Shown here piece by piece: positions 1 to 29,613 of a stretch of DNA of 50,249 nucleotides. The translations under genes and the position numbers were made by a program. Positions within the stretch are counted from its first letter, which is position 1. Every line of letters begins with the position of its first letter. Under the pieces are notes generated by a model that worked only from the letters and a program-made list of their open reading frames with translations, was not told where the DNA came from and did not search any database. Source of the stretch: Pseudomonadota bacterium (GTDB taxonomy: Bacteria; Pseudomonadota; Gammaproteobacteria; Acidiferrobacterales; Acidiferrobacteraceae); assembly GCA_021827145.1 (NCBI GenBank), contig JAKAXK010000006.1, forward strand, positions 1 to 50,249. The letters run 5' to 3'.

Positions 1-377
1 TAAGACTGATTCGCATATTTCACGACTGGGTGTGTACTGCGGCCCCCATCATAAGCTCGGACGGAGACCTGGTCGGGTGCCTCGACATCTCGGCCGCCGA
101 GGGTCCGATCTACGAAAAACTGGCCCTAACCCGGTCGATCGCGCGCGAGATCGGGCGTCTCGTGGGAAACAAGAGAACGACTTCGCTCAACATCACTATA
201 CGGCAAAGGGAGGTCCTGGCGCTTTTTGCTCAAGGGGTGAGCTACAAAGGGATCGCCAAGGAGCTTGGTATATCGATCAAGACCGTGGAGGAGCATCTGG
301 ACGCGGTGCGGACAAAGATGGGAACCAAGAGTCGGCGGGCCTGCATCAAGAAGGCCATCGAGATCGGTGCGCTGTAA
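1..377 (+). CDS. GAF-LuxR type transcriptional regulator, 3' end only
   Basis: The reading frame is open to the left window edge (codons from base 3), so the GTG at 30 is probably internal and this is the C-terminal part of a longer protein. The first part contains CTAAPIISSDGDLVG followed by LDISAA, which resembles the end of the GAF sensory domain of AcoR-like regulators. The last 65 or so residues are a LuxR/GerE helix-turn-helix: LTIRQREVLALFAQG-like start, then GISIKTVEEHL as the recognition helix region. It probably binds DNA in response to a small ligand sensed by the missing N-terminal part. It converges on dnaE2, with 12 bases between the two stop codons. Ligand and targets cannot be read. 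Confidence 0.8.
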   Translation, partial: RLIRIFHDWVCTAAPIISSDGDLVGCLDISAAEGPIYEKLALTRSIAREIGRLVGNKRTTSLNITIRQREVLALFAQGVSYKGIAKELGISIKTVEEHLDAVRTKMGTKSRRACIKKAIEIGAL

Positions 378-389
378 GGAAATGGCCGC

Positions 390-3300
390 TTACGCGGATG
401 TCGGGGATGGGCCCGGCATCCGCAGGAATTCCCGCGCGTGGATATGCTGGATCTTGTCGGGCGTGCGTTGCAGCACGCCCCGTACGAGCACCAAGGCGGA
501 TCGCAGAACGAGGGGGCGAAAGACCTCCACCACGTCCGCCGATACGATGATGTTTGCCGTGCCGGTCTCATCTTCCAGTAAGAGAAACATCAGTCCCTTG
601 GCGGAGCCGGGCCTCTGACGACTGATCACAAGCCCGGCTATGGTCACGAACACGCCGGGTCTTATGCCTCCCAAGGCCGCGATCGATAGGACCCCGGATC
701 CGAGAAGCGCGCGCGCAAGTCCCACCGGATGGCCGCGCAGGGAAAAACCCAGGGCGTGGTAATCCGCCCGCATGTCCCCGGCATGGGAGCCCGGACGACG
801 CCATATCCCGGCCTCCTCCGGATCACCAAAAAGCGGTAGCGGTGCCTGGGCAGCGAGACTCCCCCACAAGGCCTGCGGGCGCGACCCCCATACCCCGTCC
901 AGGGCCCCGCCTTCGGCGAGGCGCCAACCGTCAGTCCGCGAGAGTCGGGCACCACGCGTCAAGGCCGGCCACGAGGAGCGCTCCGACGGGGGTAATTGCG
1001 TAAGCCGCGCGGCGGCCTTACGCTTAAGCCCCCCTATGAGGCCCAGACCCAGACGCACGGCGCGCCGGCCACCGGCGTCCACCTCCAGAATCGTGTCGAC
1101 TTGGCTCGAACGGATATCGGGTGCCAAGACGCGCACCCCGTGGCGCCGCGCATCGGCTATGAGTTGCGACGGCGCATAGAAACCGAGCGGCTGGCTATTC
1201 AAGAGGGCGCATAAATAGACATCCGGGACATGACACTTGAGCCAGGCGCTGGCATAGGCTAAGAGCGCGAAGCTCGCGGCATGGGATTCCGGAAAACCGT
1301 AGGCCCCGAAGCCATGTATCTGCCGATAGATATCGTTCGCGTAGTCTTCTCCATAGCCGCGCCCACGCATCCCCTCCAGAAAACGCCCCTTGAAGGCCTG
1401 CAGATCCCCATCCCTTTTCCACGCCCCCATGGCGCGCCTGAGCGCATCGGCCTCGCCCGGCGAGAAGCCGGCGGCCACCACCGCAAGCTTGATCACTTGC
1501 TCCTGAAAGAGCGGTATGCCCAGCGTGCGGCCCAAGACCGCCTCGATGTCTCGGCTCGGATAAGACACGGCCTCGCGCCCTTGGCGTCGCCGCAGATAGG
1601 GGTGGACCATATTCCCTTGAATGGGTCCTGGACGCACGATCGCGATCTGCACGACGAGATCATAGAAGGTGCGTGGCCTCAGACGCGGCAAGAGCGCCAT
1701 CTGGGCGCGTGATTCGATCTGAAAGACACCGACCGTATCGGCGGCCGACACCATCTCGTAGACGGCGCGATCCTCGGCCGGTATCTCCCCGAGCGCGCCC
1801 GGCCCAAGCCCATGCTCGCGCATGAGCGCAAAGGCCTTGCGCAGCGCCGTCAGCATGCCAAGCCCCAGGCAATCGACCTTCATGATGCGCAAGGCGTCCA
1901 GGTCATCCTTGTCCCACTGCAGGACCGTCCGTCCCGGCATGGCCGCCTGCTCTATCGGGATGAGCCGCGTCAGGGACTCCTGCGACAACACCATACCCCC
2001 GGTATGCTGCGAGAGGTGACGCGGGCGGCCGGCCAATTCCCGTACCAAGGCGATGAGCGGACGAAAGGGCGGCTTGCGCGTATCCATGCCCTGCTCGGCC
2101 AGCCGCCCCTCCAAGACATCGACCCCCTCCCACCAACCCAGCATTCCCGCCAGCCGATCCACGAGGGCGGCCTCGCAACCCAAGGCCTTCGCGACATCGC
2201 GCAAGGCGCTGCGTGTTCGATAGGTGATGACGCTTGCCGTCATGGCGGCGCGCTCACGGCCATAACGTTCATACAGATATTGAATGACCTCCTCGCGCCG
2301 CTCGTGCTCGAAATCGATATCGATATCAGGTGGCTCGTTGCGTTCGCGCGAAATGAATCGCTCAAACAAGACCTCAAGATGCGCGGGGTCTACGGCGGTA
2401 ATACCCAGGGCATAACAGACCACGGAATTGGCTGCCGAGCCGCGCCCCTGACAAAGAATGCCGTGATCGCGCGCGAACCGCACGAGGTCATGGACAGTCA
2501 GAAAGTAATCCGCATAGGCAAGCTCCCCTATGAGGGAGAGCTCATGACGCGCCAGGGACTGCACGGAGTCCGGCACGCCCCGCGGATAGCGGAGGGCGAG
2601 ACCCTCGCGCGTCAATCGGATCAATTGCACCAGCGAATGGCGCGGACTGCGGCCCTGACGCGGATAACGATAATGGAGGTCCTCCAGGGAAAAGTGGCAG
2701 GCCGCGGTCACGACCTGTGTTTCCTTGAGCCACGCCTCGGGATAAAGGGTGCGCAAGCTTGGGATGTCCCGCAGGTGTCGCTCGCCATTCGGGTACAGGG
2801 CCCATCCCGCATCCGACACCGAGGTCTTAAGTCGGATGGCGGTCACGGTGTCTTGCAGGGCCCGGCGCCCGCGCTTATGCATGTGCACATCACCACAGGC
2901 CACGACCGGCCTTGCGAGACGCATAGACAGGGCATGAAGGCGCTCCCGGTGACGATCATCGAGCCCCGTCTTGTGCAATTCCCCAGCGATCCAAAACCGC
3001 GACCCCAAGGCCTCCACGAGCGATGCCGCAAGCGCGTCCCGATCCGGATCCTGGTCTGGACACCAAAGCACGAGGCAAGACGAGAGCCCGGCGATATCGG
3101 CAAGACCGAGATCATAACGGCCCTTGTCGACCTGTCGGCCGCGCGTTATGAGCTCGGAAAGCTCCGCATAGCCTGGCGCGCACCCCACGAGGACCACGCA
3201 CTTCAAGCCCTCCCGAACCGTGATCTCGGAGCCCACGATCAGTTGGAGTCCATGCTCGCGGGCGGCCCTGTGGGCATGCACAATGCCGGACAGGGAACAT

Positions 3301-3425
3301 TCATCCGTCAGGGCCAGGGCGCGATAGGACAAGGCGCGGGCGCGCAGAACGAGCTCCTGGGGGGAAGAGACACCGCGCAGGAAGCTGAAATGACTCAGGC
3401 AATGCAGCTCACTGTAGGCAGTCAT
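390..3425 (-). CDS. dnaE2: Error-prone DNA polymerase DnaE2 (ImuC)
   Basis: A 1011-residue C-family polymerase alpha subunit of the DnaE2/ImuC type, the usual length. It performs translesion synthesis together with ImuA and ImuB after DNA damage. The N terminus YSELHCLSHFSFLRG is the PHP domain. The catalytic carboxylates lie in PPDIDIDFEHERREE, near residue 366. A C-terminal OB fold is suggested by VFVTIAGLVISRQRPGSAKG. The start is taken at ATG 3425, which overlaps the imuB stop as ATGA; an in-frame start eight codons upstream is less likely because it would lie inside imuB. It is the last gene of the LexA-controlled operon. Confidence 0.95.
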   Translation of the reverse strand: MTAYSELHCLSHFSFLRGVSSPQELVLRARALSYRALALTDECSLSGIVHAHRAAREHGLQLIVGSEITVREGLKCVVLVGCAPGYAELSELITRGRQVDKGRYDLGLADIAGLSSCLVLWCPDQDPDRDALAASLVEALGSRFWIAGELHKTGLDDRHRERLHALSMRLARPVVACGDVHMHKRGRRALQDTVTAIRLKTSVSDAGWALYPNGERHLRDIPSLRTLYPEAWLKETQVVTAACHFSLEDLHYRYPRQGRSPRHSLVQLIRLTREGLALRYPRGVPDSVQSLARHELSLIGELAYADYFLTVHDLVRFARDHGILCQGRGSAANSVVCYALGITAVDPAHLEVLFERFISRERNEPPDIDIDFEHERREEVIQYLYERYGRERAAMTASVITYRTRSALRDVAKALGCEAALVDRLAGMLGWWEGVDVLEGRLAEQGMDTRKPPFRPLIALVRELAGRPRHLSQHTGGMVLSQESLTRLIPIEQAAMPGRTVLQWDKDDLDALRIMKVDCLGLGMLTALRKAFALMREHGLGPGALGEIPAEDRAVYEMVSAADTVGVFQIESRAQMALLPRLRPRTFYDLVVQIAIVRPGPIQGNMVHPYLRRRQGREAVSYPSRDIEAVLGRTLGIPLFQEQVIKLAVVAAGFSPGEADALRRAMGAWKRDGDLQAFKGRFLEGMRGRGYGEDYANDIYRQIHGFGAYGFPESHAASFALLAYASAWLKCHVPDVYLCALLNSQPLGFYAPSQLIADARRHGVRVLAPDIRSSQVDTILEVDAGGRRAVRLGLGLIGGLKRKAAARLTQLPPSERSSWPALTRGARLSRTDGWRLAEGGALDGVWGSRPQALWGSLAAQAPLPLFGDPEEAGIWRRPGSHAGDMRADYHALGFSLRGHPVGLARALLGSGVLSIAALGGIRPGVFVTIAGLVISRQRPGSAKGLMFLLLEDETGTANIIVSADVVEVFRPLVLRSALVLVRGVLQRTPDKIQHIHAREFLRMPGPSPTSA

Positions 3426-4834
3426 GCAAAGTAGCCCTGCAGAAACCACTCCTCTTGCGCGCTGCGGAACACCCAGAAAGACTCGCAGGCGGGATTGACG
3501 GCCACGAAATAGTCGCGCACCACGGGTTCATCCCACCACCCGGTCTCCACCCGCTCGGGGCCACGCGCAAGACGCAAGGGGCCGCGCAATATCGGTACGC
3601 CGCCGACGACCTCGAGCCGCTCCGGGGGATCCATGAGCCATATCGGGCGCTCGGCGGCCACGGCCCCTGCGGGCCCCCGCAGGCCCTGTGGCGGCCAAGG
3701 GTCCTCACGGCTTGCGCGTTCGGGTCTATGATCCGGGCGCACCGAAAGTGCGCGCACCGCGTCACGGCCAAGTCGCGCGCGCAACCTGTCCACGAGCCCC
3801 CCAAAGCCCTGCTCATGCCATTGCCCGTCGCGCCACAAGGGCAGACTGCCTTCCGTCGAGGCCTCCAGCGGGGCCGATAGCGTGACCGCCGTTATGGGGG
3901 ACGCGGGACGCGCATCCCGCAACCGTTCCCGTATGAGGCGCACCAAGACCTGACCGTCCCGCTCCGGACGTGTGAGCGTAAACGTCTCGGATCGCAGACC
4001 GCCATCCTCATGGCGCATCTCGACTGCGAACTCACCGGCGCGCGCGTCGCGGGCCCGCATGACCGCGACCCACTCGCGCACGATCCGCGCCAAGGCGAAG
4101 GACAAGGCCTCCTCCGTCTCCGCGGGATGAGAGAAACACAGCCTGCGCCGAAAGCGGGGTGCCGGCGCCCAGAAGTTCTCGACCTCCGAGCGCTCGCCCA
4201 TGAGCCCCTCCAGCAAAGAGATGACCTCCCGACCAAAACGTCGGACCAGGCCCGAGCGCGGCATGTCCAGGAGATCGCCCACCCGCGCAAGACCTAGCGC
4301 GAGACAGGCCGCGCGTACCGCGTCCGCCAGCGGCAACTGCGCCAAGGGTAAAGGGCGCAGCAGCGCGCGCCAGGGGTCTTGGGGCGTCCATACGCAACGC
4401 ATCGCGGCGCGCGCGCACAGCCAGGCGGTGGTGGCGGTCGGCGCCATGGCGGTCTCGAACGCGTACCCCATATCCGCAAGCCCCTGCGCCACCGAGGCCA
4501 CGAGCCGCCGCGGATCGCCCACGGGGCTTGCCTTGTCCGTGAAGCGCATCAAGACACCATCGGCCCGCAAGACCACCTGCGGCGTAAAGCCATAGGCGAA
4601 AGCCGCCAAACCCTCCAGAAGGGCCTCCTCGGCGGCCCGATCGCGCGGCGCGAACGACAAGGACGGGCACGAGGCGGCGGCCCGCACCATGGACAGGCCG
4701 GGTGTCAAGCCGTACTCCCGGGCGCACGCATTGCAGCCGACCAAGGTCTTGCCCTCGACCACCGCAAACGGGGTCTCACGCGGTGCGAAGGCCTCCAGAG
4801 GCAACGCCGTCAGGACCACAGCCTGCCATAACAT
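3422..4834 (-). CDS. imuB: ImuB, Y-family polymerase-like mutagenesis protein
   Basis: A 470-residue Y-family polymerase relative of the ImuB type. ImuB lacks polymerase activity and acts as the hub that joins ImuA, DnaE2 and the sliding clamp. Visible family signatures are PFAVVEGKTLVGCNACA near the N terminus, the FAYGFTPQVVL stretch and the C-terminal LGRDAVRALSVRPDHRPE. The acidic pairs of active Y-family enzymes are not evident: the VLMRFT position lacks the usual catalytic Asp/Glu. ATG 4834 is chosen; the reading frame continues upstream, but that part has no similarity to the family and overlaps imuA. imuB starts 14 bases after imuA and its stop overlaps the dnaE2 start. Confidence 0.93.
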   Translation of the reverse strand: MLWQAVVLTALPLEAFAPRETPFAVVEGKTLVGCNACAREYGLTPGLSMVRAAASCPSLSFAPRDRAAEEALLEGLAAFAYGFTPQVVLRADGVLMRFTDKASPVGDPRRLVASVAQGLADMGYAFETAMAPTATTAWLCARAAMRCVWTPQDPWRALLRPLPLAQLPLADAVRAACLALGLARVGDLLDMPRSGLVRRFGREVISLLEGLMGERSEVENFWAPAPRFRRRLCFSHPAETEEALSFALARIVREWVAVMRARDARAGEFAVEMRHEDGGLRSETFTLTRPERDGQVLVRLIRERLRDARPASPITAVTLSAPLEASTEGSLPLWRDGQWHEQGFGGLVDRLRARLGRDAVRALSVRPDHRPERASREDPWPPQGLRGPAGAVAAERPIWLMDPPERLEVVGGVPILRGPLRLARGPERVETGWWDEPVVRDYFVAVNPACESFWVFRSAQEEWFLQGYFA

Positions 4835-4848
4835 GAGGAAATCCCGGA

Positions 4849-5442
4849 TTAGAGTGTGACGATAAGCGGCGCCACCGGACGGCCGGCCTTGCGCGCAAGG
4901 GTAACCCGCACGCCCCGGGGCGCGGGCTCCAAGACGAGGCGCAGGCGCGAAGGCTGGGGCGCGAGATTCCGGGGCAAAAAGCAAAAGCTCCAGCGTCCCC
5001 CTGCGGCGGCCTGGCGCTGCAAGGCGCGGAACTCCTGCTCCCGGATATCGGCAAACCAACTCACCACGGCCCCGATGGCGGGACTCGCAAGCCCTTGGCT
5101 GACCGCCCACAAGGCCTCCTTGTGGGTCCTTGGGCGCACGATGACGAGGTGATCCAGTGCAATGGCATGCGCGGCGAGCGCCGGGGCGCAGGGCCTGTAG
5201 GGGGGTGCCACCCATATCAGCCGGCCCTCGCGACCCAGGGCCGCCAAGACCGGCAACAGCAGGCGCATCTCGCCGATACCCGCCCGCCCCACGCGCAACT
5301 CCGTCAGGACCCCGACCGGCCACCCTCCCCCCTCCAGGCATCGATCGAGCTCCGCAAAGCCCGTGGATATGACGGTGGGTACAGTCGACGCCGTCCCGCG
5401 GCGTACCCCGGCCCGCCCCCAGGCGTCCGCCAAGACCCTCAT
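4849..5442 (-). CDS. imuA: ImuA, RecA/SulA-like mutagenesis cassette protein
   Basis: A 197-residue protein of the ImuA (SulA-like, RecA-fold) family. In the lexA-imuA-imuB-dnaE2 cassette, ImuA is needed for damage-induced mutagenesis. Family features are the [17 protein letters not shown] stretch before a degenerate P-loop region ([20 protein letters not shown]) and the basic C-terminal [22 protein letters not shown] 5442 overlaps the lexA stop as ATGA, indicating translational coupling; a longer frame starting at 5499 would run into lexA. Regulation is from the single LexA box upstream of lexA. Confidence 0.9.
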
Positions 5443-6050
5443 GACGCGCCCCCCAAGCCTTGGCGCAACACCCCCACCCCAATCCCCTCTATGACCCAAT
5501 CCTCGCGATCCTGCAGAACGATTGGCTGATAGTCCGGGTTCTCCGGCCGCAAAACGACCTGCCCCGCGCGACGCTGCAAGCGCTTGACCGTCACCTCGTC
5601 GTCCAAGCGCGCCACCACGATCTGCCCGTCATGGGCGACGGGGGTCTTGTGGACCGCCAGGAGATCCCCGTCCCGAATCCCGGCATCCCGCATACTCTCG
5701 CCGACTACCGTCAGGAAATAATCCGCGCGCGGCCGAAACAGGGCCGAGTCTATCTGGTGATGGGCGGTGATATGGGCCTGCGCGAGCAGGGGCTGTCCGG
5801 CCGCCACCCGACCTATCACGGGGATGCCCTCTTCGCGCCGATCCGGGAGCCGGATGCCGCGCGCGCTCCCCGGGGTCAAAACGATCACGCCCTTGCGGGC
5901 CAACGCCCGTACATGCTCCTCGGCGGCATTGACGGACCGGAAACCCAAGGCTGCGGCGATCTCCGCGCGCGTGGGCGGACGGCCCGTGGCCTCGATCTGC
6001 CCCCGGATCCAATCCAAAATCTGCTGTTGGCGCCCTGTGAGAATCGACAT
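5439..6050 (-). CDS. lexA: LexA repressor
   Basis: A 203-residue S24 family repressor-protease that switches on the SOS response when RecA filaments trigger its self-cleavage. The N-terminal winged helix (1-70) contains [22 protein letters not shown], close to E. coli LexA. The cleavage site Ala84-Gly85 (RVAAGQP), nucleophile Ser119 (VGESM) and Lys156 (VTVKRL) fall at the same numbers as in E. coli. Start ATG 6050 matches the family N terminus. No Shine-Dalgarno sequence precedes it: the LexA operator occupies bases -1 to -18. It heads the operon with imuA, imuB and dnaE2, so the repressor autoregulates the whole mutagenesis cassette. Confidence 0.96.
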
Positions 6051-6068
6051 ACTGTAAATATATACAGT
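6051..6068 (-). promoter_or_regulatory. LexA operator (SOS box), probably overlapping the lexA -10 region
   Basis: The perfect consensus core CTGT-N8-ACAG (CTGTAAATATATACAG on the plus strand, 6052-6067) lies directly against the lexA ATG at 6050. On the minus strand it contains TATATT (6062-6057), a plausible -10 box placed six bases before the ATG, which would give a leaderless transcript. LexA bound here would block polymerase directly. The match to the E. coli-type box is direct; the promoter reading is inference. Confidence 0.9.
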
Positions 6069-6076
6069 TATAGGAC

Positions 6077-6105
6077 GAAAAAAAAGAGAGTGGCTTCCGT
6101 GCCAC
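6077..6105 (-). terminator. Intrinsic terminator of the small RNA candidate
   Basis: The stem GTGGC/GCCAC (6105-6090) has an ACGGAA loop and is followed on the minus strand by TCTC and eight T residues (6085-6077 region). It ends about nine bases before the LexA box, so it separates the small RNA from lexA. The T-run would also lie where the lexA -35 region should be. Confidence 0.8.
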
Positions 6106-6250
6106 CCTCCTTGCGATCCAGAAAGCACCCCGCTCGGCATCCCTACCGAGAACATCCCTGTACCCCTTGGGCATCCTTGCCCCGCGCTTCCCGCTTTCTC
6201 GACATCCTGTCGAAAATCCTTTTTCGCGATCAGCCATCCTAGGCGAAGCC
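6077..6250 (-). ncRNA. Candidate CsrB/RsmZ-like CsrA-sequestering small RNA
   Basis: On the minus strand this non-coding stretch carries about ten GGA triplets in roughly 145 bases, mostly as AGGATG or AGGGATG. Four sit in loops of short perfect hairpins: CGAC-AGGAT-GTCG (near 6206), GGGC-AAGGAT-GCCC (near 6175), CTCGG-TAGGGATG-CCGAG (near 6141) and the terminator stem GTGGC-ACGGAA-GCCAC (6105-6090) followed by T8. GGA in hairpin loops and a hairpin plus U-run end are the hallmarks of CsrB, CsrC, RsmY and RsmZ RNAs, which bind and titrate the translational regulator CsrA/RsmA. The 5' end is not fixed; a weak TAGGCT at 6262-6257 could be a -10 box. No convincing ORF fits here. No GacA-type TGTAAG-N-CTTACA site was seen upstream. 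Confidence 0.72.
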
Positions 6251-6360
6251 AGGGTAAGCCTAAAGACGCCCCCGCCCTATCCGCCAAAGGTCGGAGACGG
6301 TAGAGCCCGGCGCGCCCGCAGGGGCTCGCACAACACCCCCGACGCCCACGCCATCGCGCG

Positions 6361-28352: not shown

Positions 28353-29613
28353 CGCCCCCTCTCCGATCCTCTCTTGACGCGAGTATAGCACCGACCGTCT
28401 TGAAGGACCCAAAGACGACCACCCGATCGTCGGGTCCGGCGCACTCCCGCGCCGCCTCAAAGGCGCGCACCGGATCGTCATAAAGCCCCTCGGCCACTAC
28501 CCCCAGGCCTTGCAAGGCATCATCCAAAAACGCCGCATCGGCACCGCGCGCATCGTCCAGCGACGCGAGAAACCATATGTCGACCGATCCGCGCAGGACC
28601 TCGAACACCTCGGCGACCGGCTTGTCTCTCAGCATACCCACAACCGCCAGCGTACGTCCGGATACGCCTTGCTCGCCCAAGGTCCGCGCGAGCGCCGCCG
28701 CCGCCTCCCGGTTATGGGCGACATCCAGCACGACACGCGCCCCGGCGCCAGGCAAGGCCTGGAAGCGGCCGGCAAGACGCACAGCCTGCAGACCTTCGCG
28801 CAGATCCCGCGCGGTGAGCGCCAGGGTCGGCAGGGCCTCGGCCGCCGCCAGCGCGCACGCCGCATTGGCAAGCTGATAGGTCCCGCGCAACGGCGGGTAG
28901 GCCAGATCCAAGGAGCCGCGGACGCCCGTAAAGCGCCAGCTGGACCCGCAATCCTCATACCGGAAATCCTGGCCGCCAATGCGCGCCTGCGCCCCCAGCC
29001 GGTGCGCCTCCTGCACCACCGACTCCGAGACATCGAAACCGACGATCGCGGGGCGGCCGGCGCGGAAAATGCCGGCCTTCTCGCGCCCTATCGACTCACG
29101 ATCGGGCCCAAGCAGATCCTTGTGGTCCGTACCTACCGACACCACCACCGACACATCGGCATCGATGATATTGACCACATCGAGGCGCCCGCCGAGGCCC
29201 ACCTCAAGGATGGCCACATCGACCTGGGCCCGGGAAAACAGCAAGAACGCCACCAGCGTCCCGAACTCAAAATACGTGAGCGGGACATCCGCGCGGGCCG
29301 CCTCGACCTCGGCGAAGGCCGCGCATAAGGCATCGTCCGTCGCCTCCTCGCCATTCAATTGAACGCGCTCGTTGTAGCGCACGAGATGTGGGGAGAAATA
29401 GGCGCCTGTGCGGTAGCCGGCGGCGCGATAGATCGATTCGACCATGGCCGCAGTCGAGCCCTTGCCATTGGTACCGCCGATCGTGATGACCGGGCACGAC
29501 AAGTGCGGCATGCGCTCGTAGACCCCGCGCACTCGATCCAATCCGAGCTCGATACGGCGCGTGTGGAGGCCGTCGATATAGACAAGCCATTCTTGGAGAG
29601 TTCGGTGGCTCAG
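28330..29613 (-). CDS. folC: Folylpolyglutamate/dihydrofolate synthase, probable CTG start
   Basis: A 427-residue Mur-ligase-fold enzyme that adds glutamate to folates. With the start used here the P-loop GTNGKGST lies at 47-54; other motifs are [15 protein letters not shown] and [15 protein letters not shown]. The first ATG/GTG/TTG codon in frame is TTG 29541, but that loses [19 protein letters not shown], the conserved N terminus of the family. Upstream of it the only candidate is CTG 29613, overlapping the accD stop as CTGA, just like the ATGA overlaps of the neighbouring genes. The C terminus is low in complexity (GGGGGGRVV). Confidence 0.85.

Follow-up and report, generated by a model that had tools for sequence, protein, structure and literature searches.

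A probable CsrA-titrating small RNA upstream of lexA in presumed Acidiferrobacter and a sister genus

GacA/UvrY is the usual, although not universal, activator of CsrB/Rsm-type RNAs. According to the accessible text of the published work, CsrB of Escherichia coli contains 22 GGAs, and the SELEX consensus for CsrA is RUACARGGAUGU (PMC7652899). The same holds for the report that UvrY drives csrB and csrC, acting in csrB at an 18-nt repeat whose centre lies near -183, with TGTAAGN6CTTACA as the UvrY box (PMC4682653). A literature search, with most subscription journals outside it, returned no report of a CsrA-titrating RNA in Acidiferrobacter, and no csrB-type sRNA upstream of lexA was among the matches listed. 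The available part of a machine-learning survey of RsmA-binding sRNAs makes no mention of Acidiferrobacter or lexA (PMC5568370), and according to the available part of a paper from 2026, the acidophile Acidithiobacillus caldus has yielded no Csr-family sRNA (PMC13029372).

The RNA predicted here resembles CsrB/CsrC of E. coli in its repeated AGGA(U)G loops and in the presence of csrA in the genome. It differs from CsrB in having ten GGAs, and the UvrY repeat of csrB/csrC is not conserved at its locus. Several GGA hairpin loops, an approximate length and an intrinsic terminator are shared with PrrB/RsmZ (RF00166, clan CL00106), whereas the promoter without a GacA box and the place adjoining lexA are not. 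With RsmY (RF00195), it has ACAGGAUGU-type loops in common. A comparison with the Rfam models, as proposed in a sequence-only reading of this DNA, returned matches to PrrB_RsmZ and RsmY below threshold and no family at the gathering threshold anywhere in the window (the whole stretch of 50,249 nucleotides analysed). The copy in genome G001 matched the full length of the PrrB_RsmZ model with a score of 22.4 bits (E 0.16), compared with a gathering score of 44 bits that was exceeded in none of 12 genomes. Among the Rsm-type models, RsmY scored highest on the window copy, at 13.4 bits versus a threshold of 57 bits, which none of 41 genomes surpassed; the weak RsmY matches seen in 9 of the 41 genomes were set aside, as 5 of 14 control genomes also matched. 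Sub-threshold matches to BcKCsr2, snaR-A and asX2 near the region were taken as chance.

All ten GGA triplets reported by the sequence-only reading were confirmed on the minus strand, with starts at 6239, 6219, 6207, 6191, 6176, 6157, 6142, 6119, 6110 and 6098. They had been described as mostly AGGATG or AGGGATG, which applies to 5 of the 10 (6239, 6207, 6176, 6157 and 6142). The locus is composed of the following features.

6280..6295, minus strand: 16-bp inverted repeat TCCGACCTTTGGCGGA, presumed activator site, in a block aligned in 15 of 15 loci
6251..6256, minus strand: -10-like hexamer TACCCT (TANNNT), with T, A and last T invariant and spacing fixed in 15 of 15 loci
6078..6244, minus strand: predicted small RNA of ~167 nt, conserved in 15 genomes, its 5' end placed from the -10-like hexamer
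6233..6244, minus strand: hairpin 1, GGA 6239 in the loop (proposed structure, alignment)
6212..6225, minus strand: hairpin 2, GGA 6219 in the loop (proposed structure, alignment)
6201..6211, minus strand: hairpin 3, ACAGGATGT, GGA 6207 in the loop (proposed structure, alignment)
6186..6194, minus strand: weak hairpin 4 of two pairs, GGA 6191 in the loop (proposed structure, alignment)
6169..6182, minus strand: hairpin 5, GGA 6176 in the loop, with a two-sided change at one pair in 2 of 11 sequences
6150..6165, minus strand: hairpin 6, GGA 6157 in the loop, exact SELEX 12-mer GTACAGGGATGT (alignment and SELEX match)
6135..6148, minus strand: hairpin 7, GGA 6142 in the loop (proposed structure, alignment)
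6078..6111, minus strand: intrinsic terminator with a 12-pair stem, GGA 6098 in the loop and T8 at 6085-6078
6052..6067, minus strand: LexA box CTGTATATATTTACAG of the neighbouring gene, downstream of the sRNA terminator and directly before the lexA ATG
5439..6050, minus strand: lexA, the neighbouring gene (TIGR00498, 226.4 bits versus a cut-off of 110.95)

Multiple (A)NGGA motifs in loops or single strands are a feature of this RNA class, and the predicted RNA has 10 GGAs in 167 nt. Eight of the ten, including the one in the T8 terminator loop, are placed in loops of the proposed structure; the other two (6119 and 6110) fall in a linker and at the terminator foot and vary across species. A scan for GGAs in short loops closed by at least four Watson-Crick pairs recovered 6219, 6207, 6176, 6142 and 6098, in agreement with the short hairpin loops and the T8 terminator loop noted earlier. 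The densest other cluster in the window among the matches listed had three such GGAs, on the plus strand. For GGA density alone, 10 per 160 nt was also reached from ~283 on the plus strand, among the best five starts listed for the window. That stretch (~283-446, plus strand) lies mostly antisense to a long frame at 390-3449.

Folding of the minus strand, likewise proposed earlier, yielded a structure more stable than expected from shuffled sequence. Positions 6077-6244 folded at -67.4 kcal/mol, compared with a shuffled mean of -54.0 (z -3.34; 0 of 200 shuffles as low), and 6077-6260 gave a z of -3.06. In genome G000, that of the window, six GGAs lay in hairpin loops of the minimum free energy (MFE) structure, versus a shuffled mean of 1.3 and a maximum of 3 (60 shuffles). 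This test covered 6 of the 15 sequences with 60 shuffles each (shuffled means 0.9-1.5, maxima 3-4), and the counts were six in G005, five in G001, six in G007, four in G016 and two in G014, which the test fails to distinguish because its count is within that of the shuffles. In the MFE fold, a longer, competing hairpin takes the place of hairpin 2.

Some compensatory changes are present. When the proposed structure was laid on 11 sequences, 98.0% of cells could pair, versus 96.2% after shuffling; pairs with two-sided changes numbered four versus 1.3, and the covariation score was 0.197 versus 0.157, shuffle counts that are not probabilities, the sequences being related. Sliding the pairing partners reduced pairing to 39-56%. 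Helices 2, 3 and 4 are without covariation evidence because they never vary. Unconstrained RNAalifold produced a partly different structure of 45 pairs, 5 of them changed on both sides.

The GGA element beside lexA is real. A DNA search of 41 genomes, all of which have LexA, matched 11, all of one genus and including the window's own genome. Reading the DNA upstream of lexA added a diverged copy of the same layout in G007 and three sister-genus copies (G014, G016 and G017), which brings the genomes with the RNA immediately ahead of lexA to 12 of 14 in the genus and 3 of 3 in the sister genus. Relatives in two genera thus carry the conserved GGA-hairpin RNA that the sequence-only reading had suggested looking for. 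A covariance model built from the 11 genus sequences (R1) recovered the four copies outside its training set at E values of 7e-24 to 5e-9. Eight GGAs were retained in all 11 aligned genus members, seven in fixed columns and the eighth displaced by one base in two species. In 25-nt bins, seven genus members had a mean pairwise identity of 0.43-0.80 at 6494-6320, 0.82-0.93 from the promoter through the greater part of the RNA (6319-6095), 0.77 at the terminator end and 0.86-0.96 at the lexA start. Two contigs of G002 (C117 and C25) end inside or just past the RNA and overlap there, an assembly break.

No such RNA was present upstream of lexA in G012 and G013, which have both csrA and lexA and are 77% and 91% complete, respectively. 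In G013, the 3' end of leuA reaches a terminator just before lexA, and the RNA is missing there; the same genome has a 3-mismatch match to the promoter block on contig C54. More sensitive searches of both genomes found no convincing copy elsewhere. The best R1 match of G012 (C93; 18.9 bits, E 8e-4) was rejected as it comprised only one ACAGGATGTCG hairpin with 2 GGAs by eye, and that of G013 (E 0.53) was not accepted as a copy. These two cases count against an indispensable role, although both genomes are incomplete. The RNA was also missing upstream of lexA in G015, the sole genome of the family's third genus, and no such array was seen by eye upstream of lexA in the 12 of 23 genomes read from the rest of the order.

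Aligned to each other, the 15 upstream regions show no internal gaps and read TCCGACYTWNGRNGGATRGG, with 23 nt from the NGGA of the repeat to TANNNT. In all 15, TANNNT is followed by six nucleotides and then by the start of hairpin 1. A consensus scan detected no sigma-70-type pair. A start seven nucleotides past the hexamer would place +1 at 6244 and centre the inverted repeat near -43.5; the 5' end, left open by the sequence-only reading, can thus be predicted at about 6244. The 21-nt block at 6275-6295 occurs once in the genome at up to 3 mismatches. Of 17 genomes, 7 contain the exact pattern of block and hexamer, each at a single site that lies upstream of the RNA; the pattern misses G007 and G009, whose blocks are one base off, and its match in G017 uses an alternative hexamer two bases nearer. 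A promoter of its own and an intrinsic terminator without an ORF, as characteristic of the class, are therefore recognizable here at the level of sequence.

Control by GacA, a question raised by the sequence-only reading, looks unlikely, because no UvrY/SirA/GacA homologue scored over the cut-off and the box is not conserved. With the UvrY/SirA/GacA profile (cut-off 280 bits), none of six genomes had a match over the cut-off (best 105-110 bits), while 1 of 14 control genomes did. The best UvrY-box sites had 4-6 mismatches in 14 of 15 upstream regions. In the remaining region, that of G010, a site at -162 differs from the box by only 2 mismatches, a value reached by 24 of 3,000 base shuffles of this one region out of the 15 inspected; the corresponding site in its relative G001 has 4 mismatches. 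The G010 locus may therefore support GacA control a little.

The two best UvrY/GacA-profile matches in G000 (L094 and L100) are NarL-like, scoring 251.7 and 219.8 against a NarL cut-off of 250, and each follows a histidine kinase-like frame (NarX-type) by eye. NarL sites have a 7-2-7 layout with TACYYMT as the heptamer. The TCCGNCNNNNGNCGGA repeat has the 7-2-7 layout, but TACYYMT does not match its TCCGNCN. As the layout fits and the two fullest profile matches are NarL-like, the activator could perhaps be a NarL-type regulator, with L094 and L100 as candidates, although repeat layout and regulators alike are no more than suggestive.

A csrA gene, which a CsrA-titrating RNA requires, was found once in G000 and at least once in 39 of 41 genomes. 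The G000 CsrA has 67 aa and carries the VHREEIY stretch, the arginine of which we take to contact RNA. On the RNA side, the SELEX consensus occurs exactly at hairpin 6 or its counterpart in 4 of the 15 homologues (G000, G003, G010 and G014), and ACA(N)GGAYGU is present in all 15. With high probability, the locus would thus encode a CsrB/RsmZ-type RNA that sequesters CsrA, as the sequence-only reading had claimed; the promoter block, GGA hairpins, terminator and conservation in two genera agree with that assignment, and the function is a prediction.

The place adjoining lexA is itself conserved in the two genera. The sister genus, as well as G001 and G010, has the gene order leuA, RNA, lexA, so the lexA neighbourhood is old, and a PIG3-type quinone oxidoreductase gene adjoins the RNA in 8 of 11 genus loci (L001-L008, absent from L009-L011). 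A link of Csr control to the SOS cassette had been proposed earlier but is unsupported: the LexA box is downstream of the terminator, and over the 300 nt that precede the RNA, the closest box on the RNA strand had 6-7 mismatches at 15 of 15 loci, so the RNA's own promoter lacks the LexA box of an SOS regulon member. Elsewhere in the window, a further LexA-box match with 3 mismatches lies at 29570. The sister-genus copies of the RNA, located behind leuA, are separated from lexA by 148-185 nt of unlike sequence, and the adjacency may therefore be inherited gene order. A functional tie to DNA repair or SOS is not supported by adjacency alone. The LexA box runs right up to the lexA ATG (6050), leaving no ribosome-binding site in between (region 6045-6070, minus strand), so the lexA mRNA may be leaderless; this layout recurs in relatives of both genera.

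The arrangement could also be read as a cis-acting lexA leader in which CsrA, bound at the terminator GGAs, decides between stopping and readthrough into lexA. The RNA is on the same strand as lexA and 29-30 nt from its start in the 11 measurable genus loci, GGAs lie at and in the terminator, and the linkage to lexA is retained in two genera. However, the terminator is strong and kept in 12 genus copies, lexA has its own LexA-boxed start region past it, the sister genus has the unlike spacer described above, and the promoter block is as well conserved as the RNA, all of which make a leader improbable. Still less likely is a transcribed sRNA with incidental GGA loops that works chiefly by pairing with mRNAs or via a different RNA-binding protein. 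Structured, terminator-bearing small RNAs are common, but the GGA columns are better conserved than the others (24 of 30 invariant versus 61 of 133), and the loops match the ligand selected by CsrA in SELEX.

That there is no RNA gene at all and the region is G-rich coding or chance sequence is hardly credible. The lexA frame does stay open across the region in G000 (400 aa), and the same GGA density is reached elsewhere in the window. Against this, with G002 left aside because its frame meets a contig end, 9 of 10 other genus members have a lexA frame of 222-240 aa, which cannot span the RNA (the exception being G001 with 293 aa), and the frame from a conserved ATG ends at codon 3 in two species (G001 and G010). 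Given these short frames and early stops, a coding origin was rejected and there is no conserved ORF, in line with the earlier claim, and conservation of the promoter block, structure and terminator argues against chance as well as coding.

Across 57 genomes of the order, 21 had an R1 match at E <=0.1, comprising the 15 lexA-adjacent copies and six weaker matches. CsrB-like GGA arrays were seen by eye at non-lexA places in other families of the order, in G019 (L072 and L079) and G018 (L073), one G019 copy lying at the 3' end of a frame resembling tgt. Matches in G020, G028, G031 and G047 were judged by eye to be chance or coding. A search of 369 genomes of the class gave matches at E <=0.001 in 7, two of which were G000 and G004. 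In the remaining five, GGA arrays are visible by eye in G312, in G331 and in the four copies of G327, the array of G142 is a short one, and G356 shows no array. The four copies of G327 (L127, L131, L132 and L133) are similar GGA-array RNAs with terminators. Rfam searches at E up to 1 gave no Csr/Rsm family match in the 11 wider-match loci scanned, including those of G327. A candidate second Rsm RNA in G000 (C163; RF00166, 25.2 bits) was rejected since it spans a terminator and the end of the preceding reading frame, which by eye resembles an OmpA-type domain; a second R1 match in this genome (C129, 14.2 bits) was likewise discarded, with only 3 GGAs that form no array.

Overall, the locus very probably encodes an independently transcribed sRNA of ~167 nt that works like CsrB/RsmZ. 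Conservation of the sequence, promoter block, structure and GGAs, together with the presence of csrA, forms the basis of this reading. Transcription would begin near 6244 at a conserved promoter of the RNA's own, with activation through the inverted repeat near -43.5, and the transcript would display eight GGA motifs in hairpin loops and end at the intrinsic terminator. Several CsrA dimers could then be bound and drawn off their mRNA targets, i.e., titrated. More tentatively, and with considerable doubt, a CsrB-type RNA might here have moved off GacA and onto another regulator, perhaps of the NarL type, and from its position ahead of the lexA SOS cassette, readthrough or interference could tie the release of CsrA targets to mutagenic repair.

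The RNA would add a new lineage and a new place to a known kind, and its promoter points away from GacA. A probable CsrA-titrating RNA can be proposed for what are presumably Acidiferrobacter and a sister genus, a case in which Rfam models miss such RNAs outside the groups used to build them. The promoter block, unusual and strict in its spacing, makes it testable what drives a CsrB-type RNA where GacA/UvrY is not found.
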